Assembly: GCA_021521415.1 (NCBI GenBank)
Contig: JAIQDT010005783.1
Location: forward strand, 1 to 64,000
DNA from: Bidens hawaiensis
Lineage: Eukaryota > Streptophyta > Magnoliopsida > Asterales > Asteraceae
DNA: 64,000 nucleotides
Reading direction: 5' to 3'
This document shows, one piece after another, positions 7,908 to 54,678 of this stretch; the first letter of the stretch is position 1, and every line of letters begins with the position of its first letter. The notes beneath the pieces are model-generated. The model saw only the letters and a program-made list of their open reading frames with translations. It ran no database searches and was not told the DNA's origin. The translations under genes were made by a program, and so were the position numbers.

Positions 7908-8035
7908 CGCAAAACGCCGTAACGTGGTTACGCAAAACGCTTAACGCAAAACGCCGTAACGTGGTTACGCAAAACGCTTAACGCAAAACGCCGTAACGTG
8001 GTTACGCAAAACGCTTAACGTAAAACGCTGAACGC
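7908..8035 (+). repeat. Palindromic 36-bp tandem repeat within LTR
   Basis: Three units of a sequence built around GTAACGTGGTTAC (itself an inverted repeat) alternate with ACGCAAAACGCTTA. The same array recurs in the right LTR at about 17717-17848. Confidence 0.75.
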
Positions 8036-15491: not shown

Positions 15492-18178
15492 TGTGACAAT
15501 CGTCAATTTCAGGTTAACTCCGTTAACTCAACTCCGTCAATTCAAACTTAAGATCACTGAATCTATAACACACACTTCATTACATTTAAACTAGGGTTTA
15601 AATGACGCTTAACACTTACTACATGCGTAGTCTTTCGGGATTTGCACCGAAACGCAAACGAGTTGACGCAAACGATTGGTGAATAAATGAAAAACGTCAA
15701 AACAGTAATTATGTGATAATTATGTGTTAGACTTATGTGTTATGTGATAACATGGTTATAAACGTTAACTCAAGATGTAAACAAGTTAATTTGGGCTAGA
15801 AAAGTAATACTTAGAAGTGGAGGGGCCAAAGTGTAACATGTATTATTATAAATACTAATAATAATAAACCCTAACCTATTCTTTTCTCCCTCACAAAAAC
15901 CGATCAGCCTCTCCCCTTAGCTTCACTTGGCTGCCGTCACCTATACACACACATACAACCACCAGTTTCAAGTTTTGATCGAAGATTAAGGTGCTAGGAA
16001 GGTATAATCGACTATTCTATGCATCCTTATTACTTGATTTTGATGTTTGTTGGGTTAATTACAAACCCTAGCTGCCGTCACCTATATGATGTTGTGTTAA
16101 TTTGATTGTTGTTGATTTGTTAATGATTTGATAACTAGATTGAATCTTGTTGTATGGTGATTGTTGTGTCTTTGATTTGAGTTCAAACACAAACCCTAAT
16201 CTTGTATGTAATGTGAAATTGATGTGCATGGATGGTGTTTATGGGTCTAGAGGGTTATATGGATGCATGATAGTTCATAGATTGTTATTATGTTGAGTTT
16301 GGATGCAAACAGATTCTGGACAGAATGTGTATACGATGTTTAAGTGACTGTAACGAAGTGTAAACGTGAAAGTTGGTTGAGATTGTGGGTACTGCAGTAA
16401 ACTAAGTTGAGTCTAGTTTCTAAAAAGTATAAGTTTTTAATTTTTGGACAAGTAGAAGTTAACTTTTATGATTTTATAAAAACGTTGTGCAAAGCTGGGC
16501 TGTTAGACCTGCTGTTAGGTTATGTTGTAAATATTATATCTCATGAACTACGAGACCAATTGGGTTGGTTCCACTTCTGGAAGTTGACTCATTGAGTTAG
16601 GAACCAAACCCAAGTGGTCTTGCATTTATTGGATTTTTCGTTTAACGGGAATTGAAAATAACATTTTGTTGTGCATGAATCTGATTGTTATTAGTTTGCT
16701 GTAATGATTTGATGATTGTGAGAAAACTATAAGGAATAAAAATGTAATAAAATATGTTCTGGAAACCTAAGACATATGTGCTTCTGTGATGATTTTTGGT
16801 AAATTAATTGAGATGCTATGATCGGTGAAATAGTACAATCTTTCTAGTAGGATTTCTGTCTCGGTGAAACTAGCTGCTGAGTTGTGTAAAAATGCATGAA
16901 ACATGATACTTGCTATATAATTGTTATGTTTTGACCAAAATACCCTTGCGGGGAATAATTGCTAATTGATTGCCATGATTTGACCAAATTGCCCTCATGG
17001 GGAATAATGGCTAGTTAATTGTTATTTGTTGACCAAAATGCCCTTACGGGGAATAATTGATAGTGATGTACTTTATGAATACATGACACGTATATGATTG
17101 CTTACACATGTAATGTGTCACAAAAACACTTGTTAAAGTCACACACGATTCACAAACGAAACACGAAACATGTTATGTGCATAGGTATTATGTGCCGGGT
17201 CTAGAGACTCGATAATATTCCGACACTTAGAAAAATCTCTTTATTGTTTTAGAACGCTAGAGAGAGTTTTTCGGTGACGCGCATCTTGGTGATTTAATTT
17301 GGGAAATTCTTCGCAAACAGTGAGTTTCACTTTCCCCTCTTTAAACTGTTTTCAAACGCTTTTCACTTGGGGGAGATAACATACTCCACAACGCATTTAA
17401 CATTTTGTTATAAATTATATATCACTTGTAATGGCTAAGTGGCAAACGAAACATTTGAAGTCCTACACATCGAACCGGTTAATATTTAGAATAGCGAGTC
17501 ACTGTTGAGTAGTACTACTGGGTTTGACAAACCCCACCCAACGCTAAACTCGACTGGAGGTCGAGCGGGTGTAATTTTGGCTAACACGTACCATGGTCTG
17601 GAGGACCTGGTGACAAGGCACTTACTAAACGAGTCAGCTTCGGTGTCGAACACTTAGTAATACTTGTTGTATAGATTAGCTACCTATCGATATATAATTT
17701 GACATAACACTATCTTGTAACGCAAAACGCCGTAACGTGGTTACGCAAAACGCTTAACGCAAAACGCCGTAACGTGGTTACGCAAAACGCTTAACGCAAA
17801 ACGCCGTAACGTGGTTACGCAAAACGCTTAACGTAAAACGCTGAACGCAAACGCTAAACGATTTATTTTTATATAACTTGTGAACTCACCAACCTTGTGT
17901 TGACACTTTTAGTATGTTATTCTCAGGTAGCCGAGGCGGGCGCGCGGTTTAGGAACATGCATTGCTTGAAAAACTTTTAACTATGCAAACTTACTGTTAA
18001 CTGTTATCATTGGTTTTAAATCGTCCTGCGTGACGTAACATTGTTTCTATGGTTTTACGCTTCCGCACTTATTTTCATTTAAACGTTTTTATGGTTTGAT
18101 TATAACTGATGATTCCGATCCTGTTAGTTCACACCCTCTGACGGTAAAACTCCGTTAGTGGATTTTGAGGGTGTGACA
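15492..18178 (+). repeat. Right LTR of the Tekay element, 2687 bp
   Basis: It starts TGTGACAATCG and ends GTGTGACA, followed by the target duplication ATAAT (18179-18183). It has a TATA box at 15847-15854 and the same two internal tandem arrays as the left LTR. It is nearly identical to the left copy along its whole length. Confidence 0.92.
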
Positions 18179-18291
18179 ATAATCAGATTTGGTATTTAAA
18201 TCAGTTGTGAATTTTTTAAATTTGAATCAGTTCAAATAACCAACAACCTAAACAACCTAAAAATGGACCAGCCGAATACCTTAGCTATAAC

Positions 18292-21123
18292 TAGAGATGC
18301 ACATCCTAACCGGTTAACCGGTTCCTAACCGATTTCCTAACCGGTATTACTCTAACCGGTTTATAACCGGTCCAAACCGGTTAGTAAACGGTTTTTTGTT
18401 AACCGGTTTACGTAAAAAAAAAAAGTTGCAGCTGCGTTTGTTACCGTTTTTTTACCTTTAGAAACGGTAATATTACCGTTTTTTGTACTTTGGACCCATT
18501 TTAACCCTTTATAATTAGTATAAATAAGTATGGAGTGTGTTGGGTTGATTACACCACTTCCCGAGCTCTCAAAAACGCAAAAAACCGCAAAAAAATACCG
18601 GAAAAACCGCAAAATCAAACTCAAAACCGCGACAAAAACCGCACAAAAAAATGTCTACACTTGAACAACTTGGTGGTTTAACCGTCGTGCAAATTTTCGC
18701 AACAAACCGAGACAAAACCCTTTGGTGTAATTTCGACTTGTGCGAAATGTCGAACGGATCTCATAAGGCTCGGTGCAAAAAATGTGGAAAATTTTACGCA
18801 CCGGAGTCGAACTCCTCTTTAAGGCTTCACCTACAAAAACATTGTGATGTTGTGAAAAACAATCCGGCTAGGGATCAAGCGAATCTTTCAACCGGTGGAG
18901 GCGACATTTGGGTTTTCCACCTCGACTAAGTTCGTGAAAGGATGACAAAATTTGTCATTCAAGAGGGCTTACCGTTTGATCACTTTGACAACCCGCGCTT
19001 GACAAAGTTGATCCAAGAAACACTCCAACCTCGTTACCAACATGTAAGTCGCACTACCTTAAGACGCGATTGTTTAAAAATGTGGAAAAAAGCTAAACAA
19101 GAACTAGTTTTGGGTTTCGAAAACTTAAAAATCGGTGTTAACTTAACTACCGACGTTTGGTCGGCTCCACACGGTATACCGTTTTCGTATCTTTGCGTTA
19201 CCGCGCATTGGGTTAATCCCGACACGTGGCAAATGATGAAGTGTACGATCGCGTTTGAGTTATTTAGTTATCCTCACACCGCCGAAAACTTGTTTTATAT
19301 TTTAGATCATGTTATACAAACATTTAAATTACAAGACAAGCTTTTTTCAATATCTTTCGATAACGCGTCAAATAATACCGCCGCGGTTCAAAAACTAAAA
19401 ATAAAATACAAACCGATTTGTGACGGTGTTTTCTTTCATACTCGATGTGTTGCACATATCATTAACTTGGTTGTGCAAGACGGTTTAAAAGTTAAGGAAA
19501 TAAAAAAAGTAACCGAGCGTTTTAGAGAAATGTTAACCGATATTTTTAGAACTAGTAAGCAAAGACATACAAGATATTTGCAATTGTGTATCGATACGAA
19601 TTCCGTCACTTTAGGTCTGTATTTCGACGTACCTACTAGGTGGAATTAGACTTGGTTTATGCTTGATAACGGGTTAAGACAAAGACCGACTTTGGAATTA
19701 TTTCATGACAATCTTGCTAAGAAACGAAAAGTTAGGGCATTTTCGGTGAGGGGGTTGTGAAATGATTTCAAAGTTAAGCGAGTTGCTTAAATCTTTTAAA
19801 ACCGCAACCACTTATTTGTCGGGAGTTTATTATCTGACGAGTCCGTTGGTTCTTCATCAAATTTGGTTAGTTTGTGTCAAAATAAACGAGTTTGAATATG
19901 TTGATCCAATGTATGATTATATGATAGTTCCAATGAAATCAAAATTGAAAAAATATTTTGAAGAATTGCCGGCGGTTTTTACTTGTGCCGCCGCATTGAA
20001 CCCGACTTTAACCATTAGCAGGGTTGAAACTTTAATCGAAAAAATTGTTTGGGGTTTGGATTTGTATTTAGATTACCCGAATTGTGCATCAAAACAAGTG
20101 AGAAAATTTAATACTTATTTAGAAAACATGTTTGAACATTATTCTTTTAAATATGGTTCGAGTAACCCAAACATAATTTTGTTTAATGATATAAGAAACG
20201 ATAAACTTAAAAGAGCTCGTGGTAGCGCACCAAATAGCGAGCTAAACCGGTATGGTGCAACCGATTTTATGTTCACGGCAAATGATTTTGAAAACTTTGA
20301 TATTTTGGGTTGGTGGAAGCAAATGGAACCACAATTCCCCATGCTTGCCGCCATGGCCCGTGATTTACTAATCATCCAAGCTTCTACGGTAGCTTCGGAA
20401 AGTGTTTTTTCTTTGCGTGGTAGGATTCTAAAGATACGAAGGACGAGGCTAAAACCGGAATCGATGGAAATGTGCATTTGCTTAAAAGACCACTTGGATG
20501 CGGCGGACCGTATCCAACATACATCTAATCTTGAAGGAGAGCTCGTTGTTGAAGGAAAGCTACACGAAGAAGAAGTAGCAATTGGTGCCACACAACCACT
20601 AACCGAGGAAGAACAAATGTATGATGATTCGGTGCAATCGAGTTAGTCCCGAACCGGACCTAGAAGACCCCGTGTTTAATGTAGACGACGATGACAAAGA
20701 TGAATAAATAAACGAGTGAAGCCGAAGCCCGGATAGAATAATAAACGAATGAATTCAATGTCATGTAGATTAAACGTTTATTTTCAAGTTATAAGTATTG
20801 TTTAAAGCTATGAACGTTTATTTTCAAGTTATGATTATGAAAATAGGTAAAAAAAAATCAATCAATAACAAGTGTTTTTAGCTTTTTATGATTTTTTCAG
20901 GTTTTTTTTTTATTTTTCCAGCTTTTTTTTAATTCGAAAACCGGTTTTTTTAACCGGTTACCGGTTAACCGGTCCGGGTATTAACTGGTTCCGGTTAGAC
21001 CGGTTAGGGTATTTCTGTGGACGAACCAGTTAGTAACCGAACCGATTAACCGGTCTAACCGGTTAGAATATTAAAAAAAAAACGGTTACTAAAATAACCG
21101 GTTACCCGAAATATGCACCTCTA
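18292..21123 (+). mobile_element. Complete but inactive hAT transposon, 2832 bp
   Basis: The ends are TAGAGATGCACAT on the left and, on the opposite strand, TAGAGGTGCATAT on the right. They are flanked by the perfect 8-bp target duplication GCTATAAC (18284-18291 and 21124-21131), the hAT hallmark. Both subterminal regions carry many AACCGGTT motifs, probable transposase binding sites. The transposase inside is broken by two stops and one frameshift, so it could move only if transposase came from elsewhere. Confidence 0.95.
18651..20646 (+). pseudogene. hAT transposase with BED finger, broken by two stops and a frameshift
   Basis: The first piece (18651-18929) has the BED zinc finger (CKKCGKFYAPESNSSLRLHL, then HC). 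The second (18942-19649) carries the RNase-H-like core region (TTDVWSAP, SFDNASNNTAAV, CVAHIINL). The third (19762-20646, 294 residues) holds the C-terminal region, with the hAT dimerisation block at about residues 178-245 (ILGWWKQ, FPMLAAMARDLL, ASTVASESVFS). Breaks are TAA at 18927-18929, TAG at 19647-19649, and an extra G in the G-run at about 19748-19753. The two stops are shared with the truncated copy, so they predate the duplication. The frameshift is private to this copy. Confidence 0.92.
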
Positions 21124-34877: not shown

Positions 34878-37800
34878 CTAGAGCAACAAAATGATTAGAA
34901 TGGCATGTTGTTATTAACAGAATTAACATGATATTGTGTCTAATAGAAATACATTTTGTATCTAAGTTTCTTGTATTTGATATAAAACGAGTATATTAAA
35001 ATAACCAAATATTGGATAAATCAGTAAGCACTTCAGCAGTCTTTTAACTTGTAACAAAATTTTATTAAGAACGGTATTACTTTTTAAGATTAAATAAATA
35101 TTTTGTTCAATGTAAAAATATTTACTGCATAATTCAAAAATTCTCATTTCTTAAGATTGAACTTTTTTTTCCTTGGGGGGTTATGCACTTATGCTTCATC
35201 AAAAGCTAAATCAAGTCATGTCTTAACAGAAAATGAAACATATTTGAAGTCAGGTGTCAAACACATGAGAATTGGTATGAAAAATTTTGTTGCTATAATT
35301 TAGGAAGTAGACCGAGTGGGATGAGCCTCTTTCATACCGCGTCAATCTGGATATAAGGTGAAGAGGTAGGTCCCAGCAGAGCCCAGTTGGACTCGCAAGA
35401 CTCACCTTGAAGAGGGACGTCTGCGCAACGACCAACTGCTTCCGCAGGACCCACCATGCTCAGAGAAGACCTTACGCGCAGTACGCCAGCTGTACCCGCA
35501 GGGAAAGCCTCCCAATGGTGAAGTACCCCGCTTGTTCCCGCAATTGCGGATACAAGCCATCAGGGAAGGCTACCCGCACTGATAGCAAGGCTACACGCAC
35601 AAGGCACTAACTCTTGCTACTTCAGTAGTCACCTGAAGGAATGAGCAAGGCGGGAATACTCCCGCCCAAATGAGCTAGTCCGTATGCTTCTGGAAGATCT
35701 TTTGTACTATACCTGCCAAGGTATGGGCAAAACAGACGATCTGACCAAAACAGCCCATGAACCAATCACAGGGTGACAGCTCACCGACAACAGTACGAGG
35801 AGGAGCACCCTCTAGTACTGTTTGTCACTATTAGCCGCTGCCTACTCACCAACCCTTACTATGGGACGTGCGTAGCCTACAGTTGGTGGAACAGTGCATA
35901 GCCGGCAGTAAAGGAACAGTATACAGCCGACCTTGTCACTACCCGCCGCAGCCTATCCACCAACCAGCATGGCTTGTGCGTAGCCCACTGTTGGTAGAAC
36001 AGGAATACTATTCAGCCGGCTGTACCTTCTTGGAAACCTACTTTCGGCTATAAATACTCCAACACCTTAGAATGGTAAGGACATCATCAGATATCTCATT
36101 ATCTTCTCTAGCAATCTCTTAATATACACTTATATTCAGAGCAATCTAGTCTGATTCTCACGCCGGAGGGTGGTCACAAGGAGGAACCCCCCCTTCTCAG
36201 TGACGAGCTTACGGTGTCTGTTTTGCAGGTCACCTGAAGAACAACTTTCTTTGCTGGACCTCATCCTCGTGGGAAACATCTATTTAACCCCCAGATTATC
36301 CGTAATCTGCCCGGGGTCGATTAGTGTTTCTTCATTGGCGCCATCCGTGCATAAAAGCTAGAACTAATTCTTAGTTTTTTCAAAATTTCTGAAGAAATGG
36401 TTAACGTTACCCCGGTCCCAAAGCCAGTAAGTGATCAAGAAACCCCGGTAACCACAACCCCAGCAACTGGGGGGAACACCGGCGGTTATACAAATTTTAC
36501 GAACACTACCCTGGTTACCCAAGCCGGGACAAGTGCAGTAAACAATATTTCACTGGGGTTCACTGATGCCCAGTTGGAGAAACGGACGAGGGTCCCTCGC
36601 CAAACACTCGATCAAGTTAAGGCGTGGGCCGAAGCACGTCAGAAAGAGTTCCAAGCTGAGTTGGATGAACGCTTGCGTTCACTTCAACAGGCTGACGAAT
36701 TCGGCAGTACTCGCCGACATCTCAACATGAACAGTGAGTGCGAGTACTCGGACGATGAGCGGGAAGAATCCGATACCGACGCAAACCCTCGCCATAAGGC
36801 AAAAGGGAAGCGTAAGGAAACGGACTTCCAACCGACAAGGAATTTTGGAGAAACCTTTAAACCAACGAACGCGGGGAGAAACCCACGTGACTTCTCCAAA
36901 ACCTTTAGACCAACTGCTGCAAATGCAGGAAAGTCCAAGTTTGCAAGGGACATTGCGGAAGCAATCGCCCCGAGAAGTGCCAAACAAACGTAGAAACCCG
37001 GTACTCTACCCTCGAAAAATTAGTCTTAGCACTTATACACGCTTCACGCAGGTTAAGACGATATTTCCAGGGTCACCCAATCACCATTCTCTCCAACTTC
37101 AAACTTGCAAACGTTCTACGCAAACCCGAGTTATCGGGACGCCTAGCCAAATGGGCAATTGAGTTGGGGGAATACGCGATAAAGTATAAGCCAAGACCAG
37201 CCATAAAAGGCCAGGTTTTGGCCGACTTTATTGCGGAAGTGCCTGCATCGCGGGAAAAAGAGTGCCAGGAAGAGGCTCAACCCTCTCCAGCATAGGACAT
37301 CAATGATGTCTGGCGACTCTACACTGATGGAGCAGCTAGTAACGAGGGTTCAGGCGCAGGGCTGAAACTAACCAACCCAGCAGGCCAAGAATACAGTTAC
37401 GCTATTCGACTGGATTTTTCCAAGTAGGAATAACTAAGCCGAGTATAAAGCATTCTTGGGCGGGCTGAGAATTGCGCGTAAGATGGGAGTGAAACACTTG
37501 GAAGCCCACGTGGATTCCATGTTAGTAGCCAATCAAATCAACGGGACGTACACGGCCGTGAACGACACAATGGCCCTGTACCTAGCACAAGCAAAAACCC
37601 TTATGCGCGATTTTAACGATTGCAAAGTCATACACGTCAAGCGTAGTGAAAACAAATCTGCGGATGCGTTAAGCAAGCTTGCATCATTAGCCTTCACCCA
37701 CTTGGGAAAGGACATCCGCATTGAACTCCTCGAGGCACCTTCGGTCCCGCACAAGGAAATTTGTGTCATCCAAACCGGCACAGAAACGTGGATGACACCA

Positions 37801-40800
37801 ATAATAAAATACCTTGCGGCGGGTACACTACCAGAGTCAAAAACACAGGCAAGAAAACTACGCTGTAAAGCACTGAATTATCAACTCATCGATGACATCC
37901 TTTACAGACGTAACTTTCTTGGCCCACTCTTAAGATGTGTAGACAACCAAGATGCTGACTACCTCCTAAGGGAAGTACACGAAGGCATCTGTGGAGTACA
38001 CGCAGGTCCACGCGCTGTTGTAGCTAAGCTAAACAACGCGGGATACTTTTGGCCGGGGATGCATACGGATGCGCTGGCATACATAAGAAAATGCAGGTCT
38101 TGTCAGCTCTACGCACCCAACACGCATCGCCCGAAGAATGAACTTGTTCCAGTCACCTCTTCATGGCCATTTCAGAAGTGGGCCATCGATGTGACAGGCC
38201 CATTTCCTACAGCAGCAGGAAATGTTCAGTTCCTAGTGGTAGCCATCGACTACTTCACCAAGTGGATAGAAGCAAAACCCTTAGCCCAAACAACCGCGAA
38301 ACATATCAAAAAATTTATTTGGGAATTTATTATTTGTCGTTTTGGACTTCCACAGAATTTGGTGAGCGATAACGGCACCAACTTTGCTGACAAGAAGCTA
38401 CAAAAGTGGCTGGAAGAACTTCAAATCACCCACACTTTTACCTCAGTGGCGCACCCGCAGGGTAATGGTGAGGTAGAAAGAGCAAATAAGAGCATCGTCG
38501 AAGGCATAAAGAAAAGACTCTTGGAACACAGATCCGGCTGGGTGGACGAGCTTCCGCACGTCCATTGGGCAAACAGAACGCTGAAAAAGGCCAGTACGGG
38601 AGAAACCCCGTTCAGTCTCACTTATGGCACTGAAGCCATGGTCCCGGTCGAAATTGGTTTACCCTCACCAAGGGTCTTGATTCAGCCAGAAGACAATGAT
38701 GCAGAAAGACGGTTAGACCTTATGCTAACCGAGGAACGCAGAGACTTAGCCGCAGTGCGTGAAGAGAACTACAAGCGACAAATGCAAAAGTACTACAACA
38801 CGCGGGTAAAACTCTGCAACTTCAATGTAGGAGACTACATACTGCGTAACAACGAGGCTTCGAACCAACAACGCCCAGGAAAACTGGCCCCGGTCTGGGA
38901 AGGGCCATACATTATCAAAGAAGTTCTGGGAAAGGGCGCATACCGGCTCGAAAGGCTCGATGGCACTCCCATCCCAAGAACATGGAATGGAGCTCAATTA
39001 CGCAAATGTTACATGTAGATCAATTCCAAACTTGTAAAGAAAAGGCCTAGAGCCACTTCTAATGGAAATGATTCTCCTTTCACAATGTGTTGATAGCCTT
39101 ACCTTTATACTTATGAACTTCCCACACTGATGTGCCGGTATTCACCGCATAAATATGGGAAGAAGTCGTTACGTGTGGAAGGCGGCAAAACCCGCATAAA
39201 CACAAAACGGTAAAAATTTCAAAAGTTTAAGGAAAACCTTCACGCAGGTCAGATGTAGGCAAAGTTAAGCCATCCTACTAAGTGCAAGTGACGGTCTTAC
39301 CCGCACAATCACGAATAAGGAGGCAAAACTTCAACCTATTATCTACCACGTTCAAAGGTTAACTTATTCTGCACTTAGAAAATTTCAAAGGAAAAGATGA
39401 GGAAAACTTCCACGCAGGTCAAATATAAGTAAAGTTAAGCCATCCTACTAAGTGTGACGGTCATACCCGCACAATCAAGAAAGAGGAAGCGAAACAAACT
39501 TATAATTTGCCACGTTAAAAAGTTAACTTATCTAAGAAATTGCTAAGTTAAATCAAAACATGCGTAAAATAAACAAGGCAAGGAATTAACACAATCTTTA
39601 TTCCATCAAAATTCAAATATTACAAAAATTGCTGGGTGCATACCCGCATACAAAAGAAGCTATACAAAAATAAAAATCTACTCTAATGGTGGAAAGGGAT
39701 CTTCAGGATCAAGCTTCAGGACCACTTCCACTTGGACCCGCACCATCAGTAGAGCGTGGCGGTTCAAGGAAAGCTTTATGGATAGCTAGCCCATCATCAG
39801 CAGCAGCGACTTCGTTCACCTTCTCCACCACCGGATGCGGGAAGGCGGTATACTGGTTCACTGCTTGGTCATAAACAGCTTCAGTATCCACATCATACAA
39901 AGAAAAGTTGGAAGGCGGGATGCCTTTCTCAACAAACCCTAGACCAAGCAGGAAGCCGGCCTTTTCCTCATCCTCATGAGAAGCGTTGAGGGCTGCGCTC
40001 ATGGCATCGTCGTATGATGTGTCCGTAAAGACTCGATGCACAACCTACAAGAAAAAATACAAGTATCAAAACCTTTTCTATTTACAAAGAAAAGCGTAAA
40101 GACATTATGAGGTTAAGCTTACCTGAGACAACGCTTCTCGAAGAAGCCATTCCTTGGCAACCGGAGCCTCTTGGAGGGCGGCTTGAGCTTGGTTACGGGC
40201 GCGTTCGGCTTCACTTTTATTGAGGTTGGCAAGCAACACTTCCTTTGCAGCAGCCTCTTCAACGCCCTTTTAGCTTCCGCTCAATGTGGTCAAGCACGCC
40301 CCTCTGGTCCAAGATCTCTTGGAGCTTCTTGGCGTCTTCCATCGCCAAGGCATCATGAGCCTGTTGGAGCGCCTCTAGTTTGGCTTTAAGTTCCTCATTC
40401 TCTAGGTGTAGAGGCTCAGCAACAGCTTCAGCCTTGGTGGCCCTCTCGGTTGCGTTCCGTGCAGTTTCCTTAGCCAGCCGAAGCTGTTCGTTAACAGCTT
40501 GGGCAGCCTTGGAACGGGCCTCGAGCCGGGCCTGAACTTCAACCTCGAGGGCCTTGAAGGCCTTCTCCTTTTCCGCAGCCACTGCGGTAAGCCTCCTATT
40601 CTCCTCCCGGACAGCCCGCGCCTGAGCTACTTCTTGGATGCGAGCTGCTTTTAACTTGTCGTTTTCACGACAAAGCAGCTCGACGCGCGGCTGCATCCGG
40701 GCCAGGAGAACTTAAAGCTCGTTGGTTAGCCTACCCTCCTGGTAGCTAGCCATGGCTTCCCCCAACGCACCACTGGGAGCTGCGTGACGAGCCCACTCCA

Positions 40801-43800
40801 CGCACTCCACAGGCGTGCGAAAGGTTGTTCCTCGGCGGATGTTCCATCGTGGAACATACACTTCATTGGAATCCGACACTACAAAAAACAAAATGCAGTT
40901 AGGAAAAGATGATATATATAAAAAAAAAAAAAAGGCCAAAAGAACCCTACGCACCTGTAGGGTCGACAACAGGCCGATAGCCGCCAAACTCATCACCTGA
41001 ACCCAAGGGAAATCCGTCCAAGAGGTCAGGCAGATGGGAAGGAGGCAGAGGTTGGCGAGAAGCCCCAAGCATACCTGAAGGATCGGCCGTCGTTGCCGAT
41101 GACGGAGGAGGCATGGTGAAGGCCGCCGCGGTAGTAGAAACCAACGGAGGCGAACTCACCGTAGGTGAACTCGCAACCCTGGTCGCCGCTGCGGAGTCCG
41201 CAGAAAAAGTAACCGCCAGCTCAGTGAAAGATTCAGTATATATGGCACTGACAGCCGGCGGTGATGTCATCACAGTTGGAACAGTTGGCTCAACGGGGTG
41301 AGCAACTGAACCAACTGAAGCAGGCGCAGCCGCCTGGGTCGTCGCCTCAGGTAGGCTGACCAAGCCTACCGTCATGGGTCCGGAGGTACTCCTCCCCGCT
41401 CCACCCTGGAATGCGGTAGCATCCACGCTTACACAAAGAAGATAAGTATTAATGATGGAAAGCTATGAAGTTAAAAATAAAGGAAGTTTGTACTTACGGG
41501 TTTTCTTGAGCCTAAAAGTGCGGACAGGCGGGGACGAACCCGATGGAGCCGGCCTCTTTACGCCGCTCACCGTCGTCATCCTGGGCTCTCCGGAGGTGAC
41601 AGTCGTCGCAGCCTCCGGAGTAGTGGTCCTATCACCACCAGGGTTCCCCGCCACCTCCTCGCTCTCGGTCTCTGAATCAGACCGAGGCACCGGATCGGCA
41701 GTGGAAGCCACCTTCGCCTTTCCCTTCCCGCCGGCAGCCTTCTTCTTCCGCACCAACGGAGGACCATCTGCGGATTCCTCATCAGAACACAAGATTAGAG
41801 GAATTCCAGCAGAGGTTTCAGCATTGAGGGGTCGAGGGTTGAATAACGCCTTACCTGGCCGCCTGGCGCTCAGGATCTCGTGGCCTGGCGGGTAGACCTC
41901 CACGAACCGATCCGCCGTCTGTTCAAGGATGGGCAACTCGTTCTCATCTAGAGCACGAGTACCCATCCGAGCGGGACTATCAGCCTCCCGCGGATGCAGG
42001 AGCGACTGCAAGTCGTTCCCCTCTAAAATAAAAGAAAAACAGTTAGAAGACAAACCTATATAAACAAAGAAGACAGAGCATACCGTAAGGGACAGAGTTC
42101 AAACCGTATTCAAGGACGATCGGGATCTTTTGCGCCTCCGCATCCTTCCACACCCGACTCATCCCGAGCATCACCATCCCGGACTCCGCAAAGCGGTAAA
42201 CCGGAGATTGGACTCGGGAAATCTTTGAGAACCATTCCGCCTCCTGGTAGTTGGAGGCGTGAAGGCTGGGGAGTGCTTGCCCATTCTTGAACTTCATGGC
42301 AAGGGGGATGGCGCGAGCGGAGATATAAAAGAACTCCCGCTTCCATGAACGAAGACTGCGCTCGGTTGCGCAAATCTTCAAACCCTTGATCCGGGTTATC
42401 AGAGTATACCACCCCTGGATGCACCTCCAAGAGTAGAAGGTCATCAGGCGGTCGACGAAGGGCTCAACGCCCAGAATCCGGCACACCCACTCGAAGTGGC
42501 GAATCTTCGCGATCGCTATCGGGTGTACCTCGGTCAGGTGTACACCGTGCCACTCCAGAACACGGTACACAAACTTCGTCAAGGGGAACCTAAGATTCCC
42601 ATAGACAGAGAATGCGGCATATACCCCGATCTTGCCTCTGGGGGCATCATACACCGTCTGATGAGGTTCAGGAAACTCGGGCTCGAAAGACTCGAGCATG
42701 AACTTCCTGACGATGTACTGATATAGATCGACAGGCAGAGCACACTGGCACTCGCCAGCAGTACTCTTGTCATCCTTGTCGGACGTGGATGACGGGTTCT
42801 CGGCGTACCCCCCAGCCTCCTGGGCTGTAGCCTCAAGATCGTGAGCAGAAGACATCTTGCAGGTATGAAAGAAGAGAACGATTTCAAGAGAATGCTCGAC
42901 TGAAAAGGTGAGTATTCGCCGGAAATCGTTTTGAAGATGAAGAGAAAAGTGAAAGTGTGGATTACAAAGGACCCTCTCCCCCTTTATATACTAATCGCAA
43001 TCAATGCGATGAATTTAATGCGGAAGAGAGAGAAATCGCAGGTGCAATGAAACTATGACACGTGGCAAAGAGCAAGCTGGCAACAGCTGTTGAAAGGACG
43101 CGTGCCATTAATTTCGCGGCCACGCGCCCGAAAATTCGCGCCCACGCGCCTGAAAAAGCGCCTGGAATGACCATATACTGTCACGTCGCCATAACTTCCT
43201 GCACGTCCTGACACTGTCAGAAGAAACCGTCGGACGACGTTTCAATAGTTTGGACTGTTCTTATCCTTTCACCAACTCTTCGAATTTCAAAATTTCAAAA
43301 AGATTCAAAAGCGGGAAAATACCCCTTACCTTGGCAACCAAGTAACTATAAGACAGGTGCGAGTACAGTGTTAAGGCAAAACCCTTCACATACTTAGCAC
43401 CCGCAGGGAATTGACGCCAGGAATACCTTGGAAGTAAAGTAACCGTAAGACGAGTGCGGGTACAGTGTCAAGGCAAAACCCTTCACATACTTAGCGCTCC
43501 GCGGGGAATTCAAACCAAGAAGGATCTTCTGGGCCATGCTTGCGGAAACGGGAATAACATCCCCGCATAGCGGGAACGTTGAGAACTATATTGTTTGAAA
43601 CTCCAAGATGGAATTGGTGGTTTTAACATAATTGATCACTATGTTCAAAACTACCAAAACCCCATGGAGAATCCACACAAGTGGGACTCAACGCTCCTGA
43701 CTTGCGAGGAGGTTACAGACCTACCCGCTTCATACCCAAAGATCAAGCAGAAAAGTCGGGAATTTCTGCGTGACTTTAGGAAAACTGCGGGAAGAATCCC

Positions 43801-46800
43801 CACGGAAAACCTTAAAACTAAAAACCCTTTTCAAAACCCCTTGCTAAAGTCCAAAAGTTCACCTCACTTATTAATAATTCATGAAAAGAACATTGGACTG
43901 GGGGGACTTGAAGAGGTAGGTCCCAGGAGAGCCCAGTTGGACCCGCAAGACTCACCTTGAAGAGGGACGTCTGCGCAACGACCAACTGCTTCCGCAGGAC
44001 CCACCATGCTCAGAGAAGACCTTACGCGCAGTACGCCAGCTGTACCCGCAGGGAAAGCCTCCCAATGGTGAAGTACCCCGCTTGTTCCCGCAATTGCGGA
44101 TACAAGCCATCAGGGAAGGCTACCCGCACTGATAGCAAGGCTACACGCACAAGGCACTAACTCTTGCTACTTCAGTAGTCACCTGAAGGAATGAGCAAGG
44201 CGGGAATACTCCCGCCCAAATGAGCCAGTCCGTATGCTTCTGGAAGATCTTTTAACTCAATGTCTGGCATGTCAAGAAACAAAGCACCACATTTTTCGCT
44301 CATGTAAAATCGTTTTCTCTGTTTGAGTTCAATCACAAGATGGTGGACCATAGAAATCTCTAATATCAATAATTCAAAGTGTCATTTTTCGGTCTAGCAG
44401 ATTTTACTCAAGAAAATTTGAGAATTATAATCATTTTTAACGTCAAATGGTAAATAACCTTAAGAGGTGAGACTGTTACCCCTTTTATTTATTTGGATTT
44501 CAAATGGAAATAAATATACAATCATCCACCTTCAATGAATGTAGAAAAAAGAATGAAAAACTTTCTATTAACGGGCGATAATTAAAGGAGCACTATGAGA
44601 AATGCAATTATTCAAGTGTGCTGATAAAGAATTTTCTACTTTGAGCTACAATTATTAATACTAACAAATAAAAAAAATTAAGAATTAAATTTATAGTAAG
44701 TTAGGCTAATGGATTTAATGTGTATTATAAACTTTTTTAAAACCATAAGAACTTGTACATAATATGTGTTAGTTTTAAGAGGACGGGTACATAGATATAT
44801 TCGATCAATATACTATGTTTCTTATGCATGTATTTACAACTAAATATGAACTTCTTTTTTGCGTTTAATTTTGTTTACTGAAGAAACACTAACCGAACCC
44901 CGGACAGATTACTGGTAACCTGGGGGTTGGAGAGATGTTTCCCACGAGGGGTTAGACCCTTGGAAGATGGTTCTTCTGATAACCTGCAAAACAGACACCG
45001 TGAGCTCGTCACTGAGAAGGGGGGGGGTTCCTCCTTGTGACCACCCTCCGGCGTGAGAATCAGACTAGATTGCTCTTTAAATATAAAAGTATATTAAGAG
45101 ATTGCTAGAGCAGATATCAGGTATAATATGATAATAATGTAGTAAGATGATAAGATGAGATGGTCATACCATTTGTGGTATTTATAGCCGAAGGTAGGTT
45201 TCCAAAGAGGTATGGCCGGCTGCAACAGTGTTCCTGTTCCACCAACAGTAGCCTACGCACGTGCCCTGCTGGTAGTTGGTGGGTAGGTAGCGGCTGATAG
45301 GGACCAGGCCTGCTGTATACTATTCCTGTTCCACCAACTGACGGCTACGCACGTGGTATGGCAGTAGTTGGTGAGTAGGCAGCGGCTAATAGTGATACAG
45401 TACAGGAGCATGCTGCTCGCCATACTGTATCAGTGAGCTGTCGTATCTCTGATCAGATCTTTCGCCCATACCTCGTCAGGTACAGTAAAAGATCCTTCAG
45501 TATACGGACTGGCTTATTTGGGCGGGAGTATTCCCCCTCCCGCCTCTGTGCGGGATTGCTCCCGGCTTGGCTCATTCCTTCAGGTGACACTGAATGATGG
45601 AGAGCTAAGTGCCTTGTGCGTGTAGCCATGCTGCGCGGGTGGCCTTCCCTAATGGCTTGTATCCGAGGCTGCGGGGACAGGCGGAGTCCTTCACCATTGG
45701 GAGGCATTTCCTGCGGGACCAGCTTGCGTACTGCGCGTAAGGACGTCACGTCTCTGAGCATGGTTGGTCCTGCGGATCCAGTTGGTCTCTGCGCAGACGT
45801 CCCTGTTTAAGGTGAGTCTTGCGGGTCCAACTGGGCTCTGCTGGGACCTACCTCTTCAAGTCCCCCCAGTCCAATGTTCTTCTCATGAGTGTTTAATAAA
45901 GTGAGGTGAACTTTTGGACTTGAGCAAAGGGTTTTGAAAAGGGTTTTGTAAGGTTTTCCATGGGGATTCTTTCCGCGGAAGTCCTTGTCACTTGCAGAAA
46001 TGCCCGAGTTTCCTGCTTGGTCTTTGGGTATGATGCGGGTAGGTCTGTAACCTCCTCGCAAGTCAGGAGCATTGAGTCCCAGTTGTATGTATTTTCCATG
46101 AGGTTTTGGTAGTTTTGAACATAGTGATCAATTATGTTAAGACCACCAATTCCGTCTTGGAGCTTCAAACAACGTAGTTCTCGACGTTCCCGCTATGCGG
46201 GGATGTTATTTCCGTTTCCGCAAGCATTGCCCAGAAGATCCTTGGTTTCAATTCCCAGCGGAGCGCTAGGTATGTGAAGGGTTTTGCCTTAACACTGTAC
46301 CTGCGCTCGTCTTACGGTTACTTTACTTCCAAGGTATTCCTGGCGTCAATTCCCTGCGGGTGCTAGGTATATGAAGGGTTTTGCCTTTACACTGTACCCG
46401 CACCCGTCTTATAGTTACTTGGTTGCCGAGGTACTTGGCTTCAATTCCCTGCGGGTGCTAGGTATGTGAAGGGTTTTGCCTTAACACTGTACCCGCATCC
46501 GTCTTACGGTTACTTGTTCACCAAGGTTTTCTTGGCTTCAATTCCCTGCGGGTGCTAGGTATGTGAAGGGTTTTGCCTTAACACTGTACCCGCAGCCGTC
46601 TTACGGTTACTTGTTTGCCAAGGTTTATTTGGCTTCAATTCCCTGCGGGTGCTAGGTATGTGAAGGGTTTTGCCTTTACACTGTACCCGCATCCGTCTTA
46701 CGGTTACTTGCTTGCCAAGGGGTAAGAGGTATTTTCCCGCTTACTTTTTAATATTTTCGAATTTTGAATTTTGAAATTCGAAGAGTTGGTGAAAAGATAA

Positions 46801-49800
46801 GAACAGTCCAAACCTCTGAAACGTCGTGCGACGGTTTCTTCTGACTGTGTCAGGACGTGCAGGAAGTTATGTTGACGTGACAGAACATGGTCATTCCAGA
46901 CGCTTTTTCAGGCGCGTGGGCGTGATTTTTCGGGCGCGTGGCCGCGAAATTACTGGCACACGTCCTTTCTACAGCTGTTGCCAGCTTGCTTTTTGCCACG
47001 TGTCATAGTTTCATTGCACCGTCGATTTCTCTCTCCTCCGCATTAAATTCACCGCATTAATTGCGATTAGTATATAAAGGGGGAGAGGCCTCTTTGTAAT
47101 CCACACTTTCACCTCTCTTCTTCTTCTTCTTAGTGATTTCCGGCAAATACTCCCCTTTTTCAGGCAAGCATTTTCCCGAAATCACTCCTTTCTGCAAAAA
47201 TGTCTTCTCATGATGCTGAAGCTGTAGCCGACGATAGGAGTACTGCTGGCGAGTGCCAGTGTGCTCTACCTGTCGATCAGTACCAGTACATCGTCAGGAA
47301 GTTCATGCTCGAGTCTCTCGAGCCTGAGTTTCCTGAATCCCACCAGACTGTGTACGATGCCCCCAGTGGCAAGATCGGGGTATATGCTGCATTCTTTGTT
47401 TATGGGAACCTTAGGTTCCCATTGACAAAGTTTGTGTACCGTGTCCTGGAGAGGCACGGGGTGCACCTGACCGAGGTGCATCCGATGGCGATTGCCAAGG
47501 TCCGGCACTTCGAGTGGGTGTGTCGGATTCTGGGTATTGAGCCCTACGTGGACCGCCTGATGACCTTCTATACTTGGAGGTGCGTCCAGGGGTGGTACAC
47601 CCTGACAACCCGTATCAAGGGTTTGAAGATCTGCGTGACCGAGCGCAGTCTCCGATCGTGGAAGCGGGAGTTCTTCTACATCTCTGCCCGCGCCATCCCC
47701 ATTGCTATGAAGTTCAAGAAGGGTCAAGCGCTTCCGAGCCTTCACGCTTCCAGCTACCAGGAGGCGGAATGGTTCGCGAAGATATCCCGGGTCCAATCTC
47801 CGGTTTACCGGTTTGCAGAGTCCGGGATGGTGCTGCTGGGGATGAGCCGGGTATGGAAGGATGCTTCCCGGTTTCCCATCCTTCTTGAATACGGTTTGAA
47901 CTCTATTCCTTATGGTATGTCTTGTCTTTCTTGCTGATATTAGTTAATTTTCTAACTGTTTCTTTTTCTTTCAGAGGGGAATAATTTGGAGTCGCTCCTG
48001 TTCCCGCGGGAAGCTGACAGTCCCGTGCGGGTGGGCACTCGTGCTCTGGACGACAATGAGTTGCCCATCCTGGAGCAAACGGCGGATAGGTTTGTGGAGG
48101 TCTATCCGCCGGGCCAAGAGATCCTGAGCCACCGGCGGCCAGGTAAGGAGATATTCTATCCTGAACCCCTCAATGCTGTACCCGTTGCTGGAAATCCTTA
48201 CATCCTATCTTCTTCTGAGGAATCCGCAGATGGTTCTCCCCTTGTGCGGAAGAAGAAGGCTGCTGCCGGCGTGAAGGGGAAGGAGAAGGCCTCCACAGCT
48301 GATCCAGTTGTTCTATCTGACTCGGAGTCAGATAGTGAAGAGGTGGCGGGGGAGCCCGGTGGTGAGAAGACCACTGCTCCGGAGGCTACGACCGTTACCT
48401 CCGGAGAACCAACGAAGACGACGGTGACCGGTACCAAGAGGCCGGCTCCATCGGGTTCCTCCCCGCCCGTCCGTACGTTCAGGGTCAAGAAAACCCGTAA
48501 GTACAATCATAGTTTGTCTTTGTAGATTTATTACTTCATAAATTTATCTTAACACTTTCTTCTTTGTGCAGGCGTGGATGTTGACGCATTCCGGGGTGAA
48601 CCGCATGGGAGTATCTCCCCGCCAATGACGGTAGGCTCGGTCAGCCTTCCTGAGGCGTCGACCCAGGCGCCTGCGCCTGCATCCGCTGGTCCAGTTGCTC
48701 GTTCCTTTGAGCCAACTGTTCCGGCAGTGATGACGTCACTGCCGGCTGTGAGTGCGATTTTTACAGCATCCTTCACAGAGCCGGCGGTTACTGCTGCTGC
48801 TTACAAGGCGGCGACCACGGCGGCGACCACAACGGCGACCACGGCGGCTGCCACCATGCCCGCGCCACCGGCACCGATGGCCGGACCATCAGGTACGCGC
48901 AGGGCTTCCCGCCGATCTTTGCCACCTTCCCGTCTGCCTGACCTGTTGGATGGATTTCCTTTAGGTTCAGGTGATGGGTTTGGCGGCTATCGGCCTGTCA
49001 TTGACCCTACAGGTGCGTAGGGTTCCTTTCTTTTTCCCTTGTTTTGTATCATCTTTTCCTTACTGCCTTAGTTTCTTTTGCAGTGTCGGATTCCAATGAA
49101 GTGTATGTTCCGCGATGGAACATACGCCGAGGAACAACCCTTCGTACCCCTGTGGAGTGCGTGGACTGGGCTCGCCACGCTGCTCCTCATGGTGCGTTGG
49201 GGGAAGCCATGGCTAGCTACCAGGAGGGTAGGCTAACCAATGAGCTTCGGGTTCTCCAAGCCCGGATGCAGCCGCGCATCGAGCTGCTTTGTCGTGAAAA
49301 CGACAAGTTGAAAGCAGCTCGTGCCAAGGACGTATCTGAGGCGCGTGCTCTTCGGGAGGAGAACCAACAGCTGGCGGCAGCTGCCGCCGACAAGGAGAAG
49401 GCCTTCAAGGCCCTCGAGGTTGAAGTTCAGGCGCGACTCGAGGCCCGCTCCAAGGCTGCCCAAGCTGTGAATGAACAGCTTCGGCTGGCCAGGGAGATTG
49501 CGCGAAACGCAACCGAGAGGGCTGCCAAGGCTGAAGCCGTTGCTGAGCCTTTGCGTGTGGAGAATGAGAAGCTCAAGGCCAAATTAGAGGCTCTCCAACG
49601 CGCTCATGATGCCTTGGCAATGGAAGATGCCAAGAAACTCCAGGAAATCCTGGACCAGAGGGGGGTGCTTGACCACACCGAGCGGAAACTTAAGGGCGTC
49701 GAAGAGGCTGCCGCAAAGGAAGTTTTACTTGCCAACCTTAACAAGAGCGAAGCCGAACGCGCCCATAACGAAGCTCAAGCTGCCCTCCAATGGCTTCTTC

Positions 49801-52800
49801 GAGAAGCGTTGCCTCAGGTATGTTTAGCTTTATCTTCTCGCTTTTCTTTTGTAAGAAAAGGTTCTAATACTTGTATTTTTTCTTTGTAGGTTGTGCGTCG
49901 GGTCTTTTCAGAGACCTCTTACGATGATGCTATGACCGTAGCCCTCAACGCTTCTCATGAGGATGGGGAAAAGGCCGGCTTCCTGCTTGGTCTAGGGTTT
50001 GTTGAGAAAGGCGTCCCGCCTTCCAACTTCCCTTTGTTCGATGTGGATACCGAAGCCATTTATGACCAAGCATTGAACCAATACGCCGCCTTCCCGCATC
50101 CAGTGGTAGAGAAGGTGGACGAAGTAGCTGCTGCTGATGATGGGTTAGCTGTCCTCAAAGCGTTCCTCGAACCACCCCGTTCTTCTGACGGAGCGGGTCC
50201 AAGTGGAAGCGGCCCTGAAGCTTGATCCTGAAGATCCCTTCCCATTGCTAAGATAGACTTGTATAGTTTTATTCTTTTAGGCGGGTAGTTACCCGGCCAT
50301 TCTTGTAATATATTCTTGAAATATTAATCTTTTTGCGTATAAGATTGTTATTTCCTTCTTTGGGTTCCTTGCTTTATAAACTTATGACTTGCATACTTAG
50401 TTTAAATTAGCAATTTTCCAAAGTGTTTAGAATAAGAACCTTTGAACGTGGTTGATGATGGGTTAAAGTTTCGCTTCCTCCTTCGTGATTGTGCGGGTAG
50501 AACCGTCACTTGCACTTGGTAGGATGGCTAAACTTTTAACCTTCATCTGACCTGCGTGTAGGTTTTCCTTTTCGAAATTTCTAAGGCATTAAGTTAAACC
50601 TTTGAACGTGGTTGATAATGGACTAAAGTTTTCGCTTCCTCTTTCGTGATTGTGCGGGTAGAACCGTCACTTGCACTTAGTAGGATGGCTTTAACTTTAA
50701 ACCTATATCTGACCTGCGTGTAGGTTTTCCTCACCTTTTGAGGATAAGTTAACCTTTGAACGTGGTTGATAACAGGAAGTTTTGCTTCCTCTTTCGTGAT
50801 TGTGCGGGTAGAACCGTCACTTGCACTTAGTAGGATGGCAAAACTTTACCCTTATCTGACCTGCGTGTAGGTTTTCCTTATCCTTTTTAAGAATTTTGTT
50901 TTGAACCGTTCGACGCGCGGTTGTCGATAGGTTAGTGTTCGGTTTCCTTTCATGATTCATGCGGATAGACCGGCACTTTCATTTAATGGGATAATTAAAC
51001 TCTTCCCCTTCAACTGACCTGCGTGAAGGTTTGTCAAGTTATTGGGTTCGTGCGGGCAGGACCGCCTTCCCACGCAACGACTTCACGTAATGTGAACGCC
51101 GTCACCAGTGTTGCATAGTTTAACCGTTCGACGCGCGGTTGTTGATAGGTTATTATTCAGTTTCCTTTAATGATTCATGCGGATAGACCGGCACTTTCAT
51201 TTTTGGGTGCTGAACTTTTTCCCAAACTGTCCTGCGTGAAGGTTTGTCACGTTATTGGGTTCGTGCGGGTAGGACCGCCTTCCCATGCAATGACTTCACG
51301 TAATTATGCGGTGAAAACCGGCATATTAGTGTTCAGAAAAGTATAAATGTAAAATCATCAGCTTCGATGTTCTTAAAGAGGATCATTTCCATTAGAAGTG
51401 GCTCTTGGCCTTTTCTTTACAAATTGGAATTGATTTACATGCAAACTGTGTAAATGAGCTCCCTTCCATGTTGGGATGGGAGTGCCATCGAGCCGATACG
51501 CACCTGGTTCGGGATCTCGTTCTTTACGCAGCATGTAGTCTCGATATTGAAGCTGGAATTGATTCGTGTTTTCCCCAGCTGGGGTTCTACACGCACCTGC
51601 CTGCTCAACCTTTATTGCGCCACGAGGTGCGCGAGCGTCCCATCTCTGACAAATGCTTCGACCATGTCTTTCACGTCTGTGCATTCTTCAGTGTTGTGGC
51701 CCTTTGTCTTGTGAAAGTCACAGTATTTGCTCCGATCAGCGTCGTGACGATGTCGGATTATCGGAGGTTTTGGCCACGGGAGCTCTTCAGTGGCGAATAT
51801 CTCAGTGACGCTTTTGGTGAGGGGCGTCCATCTGGAGTTTCGGTGCGGCTGTACATTATCCCTTCCGCCCAACCGATGTTGCAAGCCGGATGAGGTGTCA
51901 AAGTTTACCCTTGACTGCCAAATGCCTAGCTTTCGTTTTTTATTTAGTCGGGCTGTGAGGACGTTGTCCTCTCTCGTCCTCTGGGTGTAGAGGTTTGTGC
52001 TCTGTGGGAGATCTTTACCCAGTTGCTTCTCTGTTTCCGCATAGCGTTTTGCTGCTGTCATGATGCCATCCCATGTGGATGGCATGCCATCTTTACCCGT
52101 TAGGGTGCGGATGAGCTCTGGGTCATGTGCGCCCTGGATGAAGGCAGCGCGAACAAGATCTTCGCTGATATTGCCCAAACTTAGCTTCTTTGAGTTGAAG
52201 CGAGTGATGAAATTTGGCAGAGATTCATCTTCCTCTCGTATGCATTTGAGGATTGTCCATTGCTCCTCGGTATACTTCCGTTGCTGGCTGAAGTGTTGGC
52301 TAAACTTCTGTTGGAAGTCTGCCCAGTCATAGATGTGGTTGACCGGTAGACGATCAAACCAAGCTCTAGCAGCCCCAACAAGCGTCATTTGGAACATGTA
52401 GCACCACGTGGGTTCCGTCCAATTGCTGACGGTTGCCCCCGCTATGAACCTGTTCAAATGATCGTCTGGATCAGATAAACCGTCATATGTGCCTATGTTA
52501 GGCATTTGTTTGGCACTCTTTGGGGCGATTGCCTCCGCAATGTCCCTTGCAAACTTGGACATTCCTGCATTTGCAACGTTTGGTCTGAACGTTTTGGAGA
52601 AGTCCCGTGGACTTCCACCTGTGCTTTTTGGTTTGAAGGCTTGTCCAAAATGCCTTTTCGGTTGGGATTCCGTTTCCTTACGCTTCCCTTTTGCCCTATG
52701 GCGAGGGTTCGCGTCGGAGTCGGATTCCTCCGAGTCATCCTCCCAGTACTCGAATTCGTCGGCCTGTTGCACGGAACGCAAGCGTTCGTCCAACTCAGCC

Positions 52801-54678
52801 TGGAATTCCTTTTGTCGTGCCTCCGCCCATGCCTTAACTTCATCGAGAGTCTGGCGGGGGAGTCTTCGTTTCTCAAACTGGGTATCGGTGGATCCCAGTA
52901 GGCGATCATTTACTGCACTTGCCCCAGCTTTGGTAAGTGGGGTAGTGTTCGTAAAATTTACTTCACTTGCCCCGGCTTTGGTAACCGGGGTAGTGTTTGT
53001 AAAAACTGTGTTACCGGTATTCACCCCAGTAGCTGGGGTTGTGGTTACCGGAATTTCTCTAACCATCTTTGTAGAAGTTTGAAAAAACTGGAGAAAATTG
53101 TAGTTCTAGCTTTATGCACGGATGGCGCCAATGAAGAAACACTAACCGAACCCCGGACAGATTACTGGTAACCTGGGGGTTGGAGAGATGTTTCCCACGA
53201 GGGGTTAGACCCTTGGAAGATGGTTCTTCTGATAACCTGCAAAACAGACACCGTGAGCTCGTCACTGAGAAGGGGGGGGTTCCTCCTTGTGACCACCCTC
53301 CGGCGTGAGAATCAGACTAGATTGCTCTTTAAATATAAAAGTATATTAAGAGATTGCTAGAGCAGATATCATGTATAATATGATAATAATGTAGTAAGAT
53401 GATAAGATGAGATGGTCATACCATTTGTGGTATTTATAGCCGAAGGTAGGTTTCCAAAGAGGTATGGCCGGCTGCAACAGTGTTCCTGTTCCACCAACAG
53501 TAGCCTACGCACGTGCCCTGCTGGTAGTTGGTGGGTAGGTAGCGGCTGATAGGGACCAGGCCTGCTGTATACTATTCCTGTTCCACCAACTGACGGCTAC
53601 GCACGTGGTATGGCAGTAGTTGGTGAGTAGGCAGCGGCTAATAGTGATACAGTACAGGAGCATGCTGCTCGCCATACTGTATCAGTGAGCTGTCGTATCT
53701 CTGATCAGATCTTTCGCCCATACCTTGTCAGGTACAGTAAAAGATCCTTCAGTATACGGACTGGCTTATTTGGGCGGGAGTATTCCCCCTCCCGCCTCTG
53801 TGCGGGATTGCTCCCGGCTTGGCTCATTCCTTCAGGTGACACTGAATGATGGAGAGCTAAGTGCCTTGTGCGTGTAGCCATGCTGCGCGGGTGGCCTTCC
53901 CTAATGGCTTGTATCCGAGGCTGCGGGGACAGGCGGAGTCCTTCACCATTGGGAGGCATTTCCTGCGGGACCAGCTTGCGTACTGCGCGTAAGGACGTCA
54001 CGTCTCTGAGCATGGTTGGTCCTGCGGATCCAGTTGGTCTCTGCGCAGACGTCCCTGTTTAAGGTGAGTCTTGCGGGTCCAACTGGGCTCTGCTGGGACC
54101 TACCTCTTCAGACCCTACCAGAAACCGACATTGACTGTTTACCCAACTCAAATCGGTTTAGGTCCAGAACCTGATTTAGTTTAATTGGTATTGCTTACCC
54201 ATTCACCAGAGCAAAAAGAGCTTCTGGCATTCAGATGAATCAACACCCTTGGCTGCAACACATCTGCATTTGATCATAACTTACCAAATTGCTAAAAGGT
54301 GAATAAGTATATCTTTAAATACATTAAAAAAAATAAGCATAGCTTCTTTAAAAAAATGTACGTTTAAACATTTAGTTACACAATTTATTTACACAATTAA
54401 ACTAAATCAGGTTCTGGACCTAAACCGTTTAATTTTGTTTACACAATTTATTTTTCATTTTGAGATATCAAGTGTTTAAATAACTAATACTAAGTACGTT
54501 TAAACATTTAGTTATTTGAATAATGATTACATGGATGATCATGAGAAAGCCAAAATAAAAACTTCAAGGTATTGCCGACAAGAGATGAAATTACAGGATT
54601 TCGATCTCATCTCTTGATGGCACAACATAAACATACTTAATCGATCAGTTTTCTTGCCGTTCATCAAGTAGTCGTCAG

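Follow-up and report, generated by a model that had tools for sequence, protein, structure and literature searches.

The window, a 64,000-nucleotide stretch of the Bidens hawaiensis genome (assembly GCA_021521415.1, contig JAIQDT010005783.1, positions 1 to 64,000 of the forward strand), holds a long terminal repeat (LTR) retrotransposon that carries an additional gene on the strand opposite gag. The first-pass annotation, made from the letters alone, described this gene as five exons and four GT-AG introns joining into a stop-free frame of 915 codons, preceded by a G-box and a TATA box. All of these are found in the sequence, and both promoter motifs are largely kept among copies (Table 1). 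The plus-strand model spans 47200-50225 and joins to 2748 nt, that is, 915 codons and a stop. The reading favored here, at a probability of about 0.7, is that of a pol-less Retand-type element with a separately transcribed, spliced PF04195 gene that is under selection and whose product is likely nuclear and regulates expression of the element. The gene itself, the selection on it, and its introns are the parts of this reading that come close to certainty.

The Gene and Its Host Element

Scanning GT/AG combinations in set ranges at the four gaps yields 12 open joins, including the model adopted here, whose donors are listed in Table 1. None of exons 2-5 starts with ATG. The region between the 3' LTR and the gene (45859-47058), with a tandem array and the predicted promoter, was compared with copy A, a decayed copy of the same gene in a neighboring element of the window. 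Per aligned 100 bp it diverges by 4-18%, with 2 of the 12 windows, both inside the array, having no counterpart in copy A; the corresponding figures are 17-29% in the four introns and 32% directly after the gene. In the array itself, 12 of 189 aligned positions differ, and the remaining array has no counterpart in A. This low divergence fits a constrained regulatory region, and recombination could give the same pattern.

The gene was originally placed opposite gag-pol. It does lie opposite gag; the mention of pol does not stand, as the element keeps only a remnant of the integrase end. The host is thus not an autonomous LTR retrotransposon with complete gag and pol: gag is open, and pol is gone except for this remnant, at which an open frame runs from 51373 to 51687. 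When 51300-51800 is aligned with L071, a sequence from a pol-bearing relative, homology breaks off near the gag end and picks up again in the integrase end, with ~3.66 kb missing in between. The same deletion is seen in 20 sister copies for which the gag side was fetched: gag is matched, and an RNase H-integrase match is found in 0 of the 20. The gag match is partial in 5 of them, in 4 because the fetched stretch ends. The sequences flanking the host element (TTTAC at 44874-44878 and GACCC at 54111-54115) are not the two copies of a 5-bp target duplication, a hint that the locus recombined or was rearranged once the element had inserted.

Several features suggest that the host is likely an element of Retand type (Tat clade, Ty3/gypsy). 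An antisense PF04195 frame lies between the integrase remnant and the 3' LTR, as in Retand elements between pol and the 3' LTR. The Pfam family RVT_3 is taken here to be the archaeal-type RNase H. Since the host itself lacks pol, the order of RNase H domains is read from relatives: RT_RNaseH, RVT_3 and rve follow one another in L071, and RVT_3 precedes rve in the copy A element. In the available text of Neumann 2019 (PMC6317226), an archaeal-type RNase H follows RNase H and precedes integrase in Retand elements. The ~5.6 kb between the integrase remnant (~51436) and the LTR edge at 45858 fall inside the range of 2,933-6,566 bp given for the Retand POL-3'LTR region in the part of PMC11963269 that was accessible.

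Table 1. Features of the host element and of the neighboring gene copy (positions in the window)
Feature	Position	Strand	Remarks
Copy A of same gene, neighboring element	39712-42855	-	Decayed: in-frame stop, frameshift, intron 2 acceptor lost
Host LTR element	44879-54110	-	TG..CA LTR ends
3' LTR of host element	44879-45858	-	977/980 positions identical to other LTR
~97-bp tandem repeat array	46241-46720	.	Between 3' LTR and antisense gene
G-box CACGTG	46997-47002	+	Kept in 33/33 close copies, also in copy A
TATA box TATATAAAG	47071-47079	+	Kept in 31/33 close copies and 9/9 A-type copies
Exon 1	47200-47914	+	Starts with ATG; holds PF04195 (Transposase_28), residues 66-125
Predicted intron 1	47915-47974	+	Phase 1, GTATGT..TTTCAG
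Exon 2	47975-48496	+	RKKK at residue 330
Predicted intron 2	48497-48571	+	GTAAGT..GTGCAG
Exon 3	48572-49012	+	Ala/Pro/Thr-rich; least constrained exon
Predicted intron 3	49013-49083	+	GTGCGT..TTGCAG
Exon 4	49084-49817	+	Predicted single long helix, coiled-coil-like
Predicted intron 4	49818-49889	+	Phase 0, GTATGT..TTGTAG
Exon 5 and stop codon	49890-50225	+	
Second tandem repeat set	50426-51304	.	Downstream of antisense gene
Remnant of integrase end of pol	51436-51555	-	From alignment with L071; lower bound estimated
gag of host element	51612-53066	-	484 codons, open, PF03732 match
5' LTR of host element	53132-54110	-	

Selection on the Protein

Copies of the gene were compared within the same assembly (3.47 Gb). 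The 33 close copies, chosen by exon 1 similarity, are the window copy (copy B) and 32 fetched ones; L013, whose match stops in exon 2, is excluded from the counts, and 6 of the 39 other close places were not fetched. Shortened stretches at places of the same 39-place list (L001-L008) served for a first look only. The A-type subfamily is represented by 9 copies, 8 of the 39 other A-type places having been fetched.

The first-pass annotation offered the ratio of nonsynonymous to synonymous substitution rates (dN/dS) between copies as a test, a value near 1 counting against the gene. The window copy has a dN/dS of 0.210 (at a dS of 0.475) against L066 and 0.220 (at a dS of 0.439) against L069, the two A-type copies with full-length open frames, and the objection fails. 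Constraint is uneven along the gene. Against L066 and L069, respectively, dN/dS is 0.125 and 0.137 in exon 1, 0.31 and 0.32 in exon 2, 0.46 and 0.57 in exon 3, 0.124 and 0.125 in exon 4, and 0.17 and 0.124 in exon 5. For gag, used as a yardstick, the comparison is with the truncated gag in the copy A element and yields 0.251 (173 codons). Among the other frames of the same stretch, the two shifted plus frames reach 1.2-1.96 and two minus frames 1.5-1.8.

Indels and codon positions tell a similar story. Exon indels are multiples of three in 9/9 cases against L066 and 7/7 against L069, as compared with 2/9 and 1/9 in the introns; even against the decayed copy A, 8/9 exon indels are in phase. Differences between copies A and B show a third-position excess in exons 1, 2, 4 and 5, which is weak in exon 3, and are even in the introns. 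Among 13 close copies, variable columns favor third positions in exons 1, 2 and 4. On this comparative evidence, the antisense gene is a protein gene under purifying selection, not a chance frame.

A gene that was useful once, in a pol-bearing ancestor, might also look intact if it had recently been amplified from a few intact sources. The fetched gene copies are indeed 97-100% alike, and the two LTRs of the host differ by only 2 substitutions and 1 indel in 980 positions. This account is nonetheless judged unlikely, given the kinds of change seen among the 33 close copies. Nonsynonymous, synonymous and nonsense changes number 49, 50 and 0 among those shared by at least 2 copies, and 125, 59 and 8 among private ones found in one copy (Fisher p = 0.0013 when stops are grouped with nonsynonymous changes, 0.00095 without exon 3). 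In exon 1, all 8 shared changes are synonymous. Taken over all exons, private changes appear nearer to neutral, as after insertion, and changes passed through further transposition appear filtered. Recombination with pol-bearing kin could supply part of the shared changes, a caveat to this test. The pattern suggests that selection on the gene continues among pol-less copies, and a benefit therefore likely reaches the carrier element or its close kin.

Intron Conservation and Retrotransposition

Conserved exon boundaries had been named at the outset as a mark of a genuine gene, and the splice sites are kept. GT..AG borders all four introns in 33/33 close copies, where intron lengths are 57-60, 65-76, 69-73 and 68-74 for introns 1-4. 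The 9 A-type copies have 35 of 36 introns readable (one is lost with its flanks in L065), with GT in 35/35 and AG in 33/35.

Two of the introns are found well beyond these copies. Families C and D are distant gene families at and beyond the window end (C5783:62500-71400), whose best stretches have 46% and 31% residue identity to the window gene. Both are decayed, with a frameshift or stops. Intron 1 of each family is a phase 1 intron at the position it has in the window gene, to within one codon; intron 4 of each is a phase 0 intron located nine codons past the start of a conserved tryptophan codon, again as in the window gene. Family C is read through without an intron at the place of intron 3. 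The two genes lie there in tandem on the plus strand (485-3580 and 3833-6001 of L009, 1-590 of L073), and are possibly two antisense genes of one element.

Genome searches at junction 1 used 34-base patterns with at most 3 mismatches, written to fit A- and B-type sequences; older, more changed copies escape them. The unspliced exon 1-intron 1 junction has 7,588 matches (3,745 + 3,843), and the spliced exon 1-exon 2 junction has 0. These counts agree with the earlier proposal that genomic RNA, being of the wrong strand, carries the introns through retrotransposition intact, and they fit a life cycle whose RNA intermediate does not allow them to be spliced out. A spliced mRNA copied back into the genome was considered as well and is rejected within the same limit of mismatches. 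At junction 1 the genome thus appears to hold no fossil of a spliced mRNA, and splicing itself therefore stays a prediction.

The same data bear on the idea that the exons are separate short open reading frames (ORFs) or pieces of a dead gene, the gaps between them being ordinary spacers and not introns. Such a reading can point to the 12 alternative joins that are open and to a spliced mRNA without genomic trace at junction 1. It would have to account for a frame held over five exons with in-phase indels, for GT..AG in every close copy at each of the four introns, for two introns recurring in families as distant as C and D, and for exons 2-5 without a starting ATG. It is accordingly given hardly any credence.

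Features of the Predicted Product

The first-pass annotation expected PF04195 in residues ~50-200. A Pfam scan of the exon 1 product does find the family, over a shorter extent, residues 66-125 (28.0 bits, cut-off 26.2, E 2.7e-06). Exons 2-5, scanned one by one, have no Pfam family above cut-off, and none of the five exon products matches the basic leucine zipper (bZIP) family. AlphaFold2 predicts a helix in exon 4 covering residues 36-241 of 244 with a mean predicted local distance difference test (pLDDT) score of 79.9, in a single-sequence model. The RKKK patch in exon 2 may be a nuclear signal. A protein search with the full product matches 5 Asteraceae proteins (Helianthus and Tanacetum), 4 of them with PF04195; when the search was scored on residues 20-300, 0 of 738 candidates passed.

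The frame on the opposite strand over exon 1 (47266-47943) was also considered as a gene and rejected, with 3 stops in six A-type sequences tested. In window copy B its 1 stop is the frame's own end.

Comparison with Known Elements

The published systems compared here are cited from the portions of each paper that were available. Vicient 2025 (PMC11963269) regards antisense PF04195 genes as a trait of Retand elements and finds antisense coding regions in every Retand cluster with recent activity, with PF04195 in 97%; Transposase_28 is reported in 23% of Retand elements in PMC6317226. As to novelty, an antisense PF04195 gene is thus already typical of Retand, and it is the multi-intron structure that has no match in the literature searched. 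Searches of that literature, in which subscription papers are poorly covered, turned up no plant LTR element described as having introns in its antisense genes, and no such multi-intron gene retained in a pol-less element. The multi-intron structure may be new in print, which is not certain.

Retand TRP28 elements resemble the host in having an antisense PF04195 ORF between the pol region and the 3' LTR, together with tandem repeats, and non-autonomous members are reported (PMC11963269). The Retand antisense genes of that study were scored as ORFs (>600 bp, later shorter ones too), whereas the window gene is multi-exon, and the word "intron" occurs 0 times in its available main text. Surveys scoring single frames would undercount such multi-exon antisense genes. 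The clusters described in the accessible part of PMC11963269 lack gag, gag and protease, or RNase H and integrase; a type with gag, no pol and a retained antisense gene is not among them.

Maize Grande offers a second comparison, by description only. Its gene23 (Gomez-Orte 2013, cited through Vicient and Casacuberta 2020, PMC7264820) is, like the window gene, an antisense accessory gene in a long 3' internal region. An own promoter and a nuclear product are reported for gene23, whereas both are only predicted for the window gene. The available text of PMC7264820 contains the word "intron" 0 times.

The HBZ gene of human T-cell leukemia virus type 1 (HTLV-1) is an analogy rather than a homolog. 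A spliced antisense transcript encodes HBZ, a nuclear protein with a C-terminal zipper (Barbeau and Mesnard 2011, PMC3185765), and the window gene is likewise predicted to yield a retroelement protein from such a transcript. HBZ transcription begins in the 3' LTR, whereas the predicted promoter of the window gene is internal; HBZ is a bZIP factor, in contrast to the window product, which has no bZIP match and whose gene has four predicted introns.

Plant LTR retrotransposons are generally without introns, with few exceptions such as Ogre and EVADE (2025 review, PMC12786077; also PMC6317226). The Ogre and EVADE introns sit in the element's own gag-pol transcript, whereas the four of the window gene lie on the other strand.

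Proposed Role and Alternatives

The role of antisense ORFs is called unknown in the accessible text of PMC7264820 and PMC11963269, the latter suggesting a regulatory role for Retand antisense genes. In the mechanism proposed here, the antisense gene would be transcribed from its own internal promoter, as predicted from motif conservation. The element's genomic RNA would be the wrong strand for splicing, letting the introns ride through reverse transcription, and the opposite-strand transcript alone would become mRNA, to be spliced and translated. The product, with its PF04195 domain, basic patch, flexible linker and long helix, may then act on the element's DNA or transcripts. Such an accessory protein would help the element spread, with pol borrowed from pol-bearing relatives. 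The function taken by itself, that of a nuclear accessory protein acting on the element's own expression, is a tentative assignment with slightly less than an even chance of being correct.

A number of observations weigh against this overall reading. The PF04195 score barely exceeds its cut-off; the structure model of exon 1 is unusable (mean pLDDT 39.5, AlphaFold2 with a 7-sequence alignment), and exon 1 has no match among solved structures up to E 1. One minus frame has a dN/dS of 0.32. It pairs third positions with third positions and is read as a shadow of the third codon positions, because it is interrupted by extra stops in six A-type sequences tested. The 13 close copies have no third-position lean in exon 3 (15, 22, 20) or exon 5 (4, 4, 2), and exon 1 has a synonymous lean among its private changes too (7 nonsynonymous, 3 stop, 8 synonymous). 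Frames are intact in 23 of the 33 close copies and broken in 10; of the 9 A-type copies only 3 have an open frame, in one case a shortened one. The use of exon 1 as search query biases intactness upward and makes exon 1 quieter than a fair sample would be. Direct evidence that pol is absent comes from 20 of the 33 close copies. Finally, the antisense gene of the element on C1382 (L066 with L072) is A-type and open over 950 codons, yet the gag and the pol deletion of this element resemble those of the B type; besides gag it has an integrase remnant, with no further RNase H-integrase match within 6 kb. Exchange between the A and B subfamilies is therefore likely, and it could mimic conservation.

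The transcript, rather than the protein, might be what matters, by pairing with genomic RNA and tuning silencing. This has been suggested for antisense ORFs in general (PMC7264820, available text), and an RNA role could come on top of a protein role. As a substitute for it, the idea is very unlikely, since it does not require amino-acid-level selection of the kind seen in exons 1 and 4 (dN/dS ~0.12-0.14). If a multi-exon antisense gene is under such selection and is kept without pol, the protein matters to the element, and the question of what antisense genes do becomes directly testable.

VANDALs are DNA transposons, and their VANC proteins suggest another role by analogy: the window product may be a factor that counters silencing by binding the tandem repeats of its own element. 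VANC is likened to the window gene by description, both being transposon-borne accessory proteins of elements with tandem repeats, and VANC targets are often tandem repeats (PMC5735166, accessible part). Tandem arrays lie on both sides of the window gene, the upstream region 45859-47058 is less diverged from copy A than the introns are, and PF04195 is predicted to be DNA-binding in the text available from PMC11963269. The low upstream divergence may instead stem from recombination, and the role is regarded as rather unlikely; it would still be the most testable sharper form of the proposed mechanism. A broader and more speculative version, doubtful as it stands, describes a two-strand Retand genome in which an unspliceable replication RNA is set against an intron-locked regulatory gene able to give protein solely from its own nuclear transcript, whose family-specific nuclear factor would recognize the element's own arrays and sustain transcription. 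If this were true, gag and the factor, and not pol, would be the minimal set for a parasite element to possess, which would explain why pol-less families keep both.

Related and Neighboring Elements

The pol-bearing relative on C3306 consists of L069, with its open A-type antisense gene, and L071, whose pol matches are RVT_1, RNase H, RVT_3 and rve. No protease family is matched in L071, and its gag is broken by a stop. In the A-type copy L065 (C6103), a single stretch is missing that reached from late exon 2 across intron 2 into early exon 3, and the joined remainder is still open over 771 codons.

The copy A element (35359-44253) has the opposite orientation to the host. Its gag is truncated and its antisense gene decayed, and its open-frame listing contains no reverse transcriptase frame. 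It has a 526-codon open frame with RVT_3, integrase zinc-binding and rve matches, and its right LTR matches the left over 345 bp only (99.1%). Elsewhere in the window, a direct repeat pair at 5694-10240 and 15492-20046 (4.5 kb, 98.7% identity) is possibly the very long LTRs of another element, with its inside at 10.2-15.5 kb.

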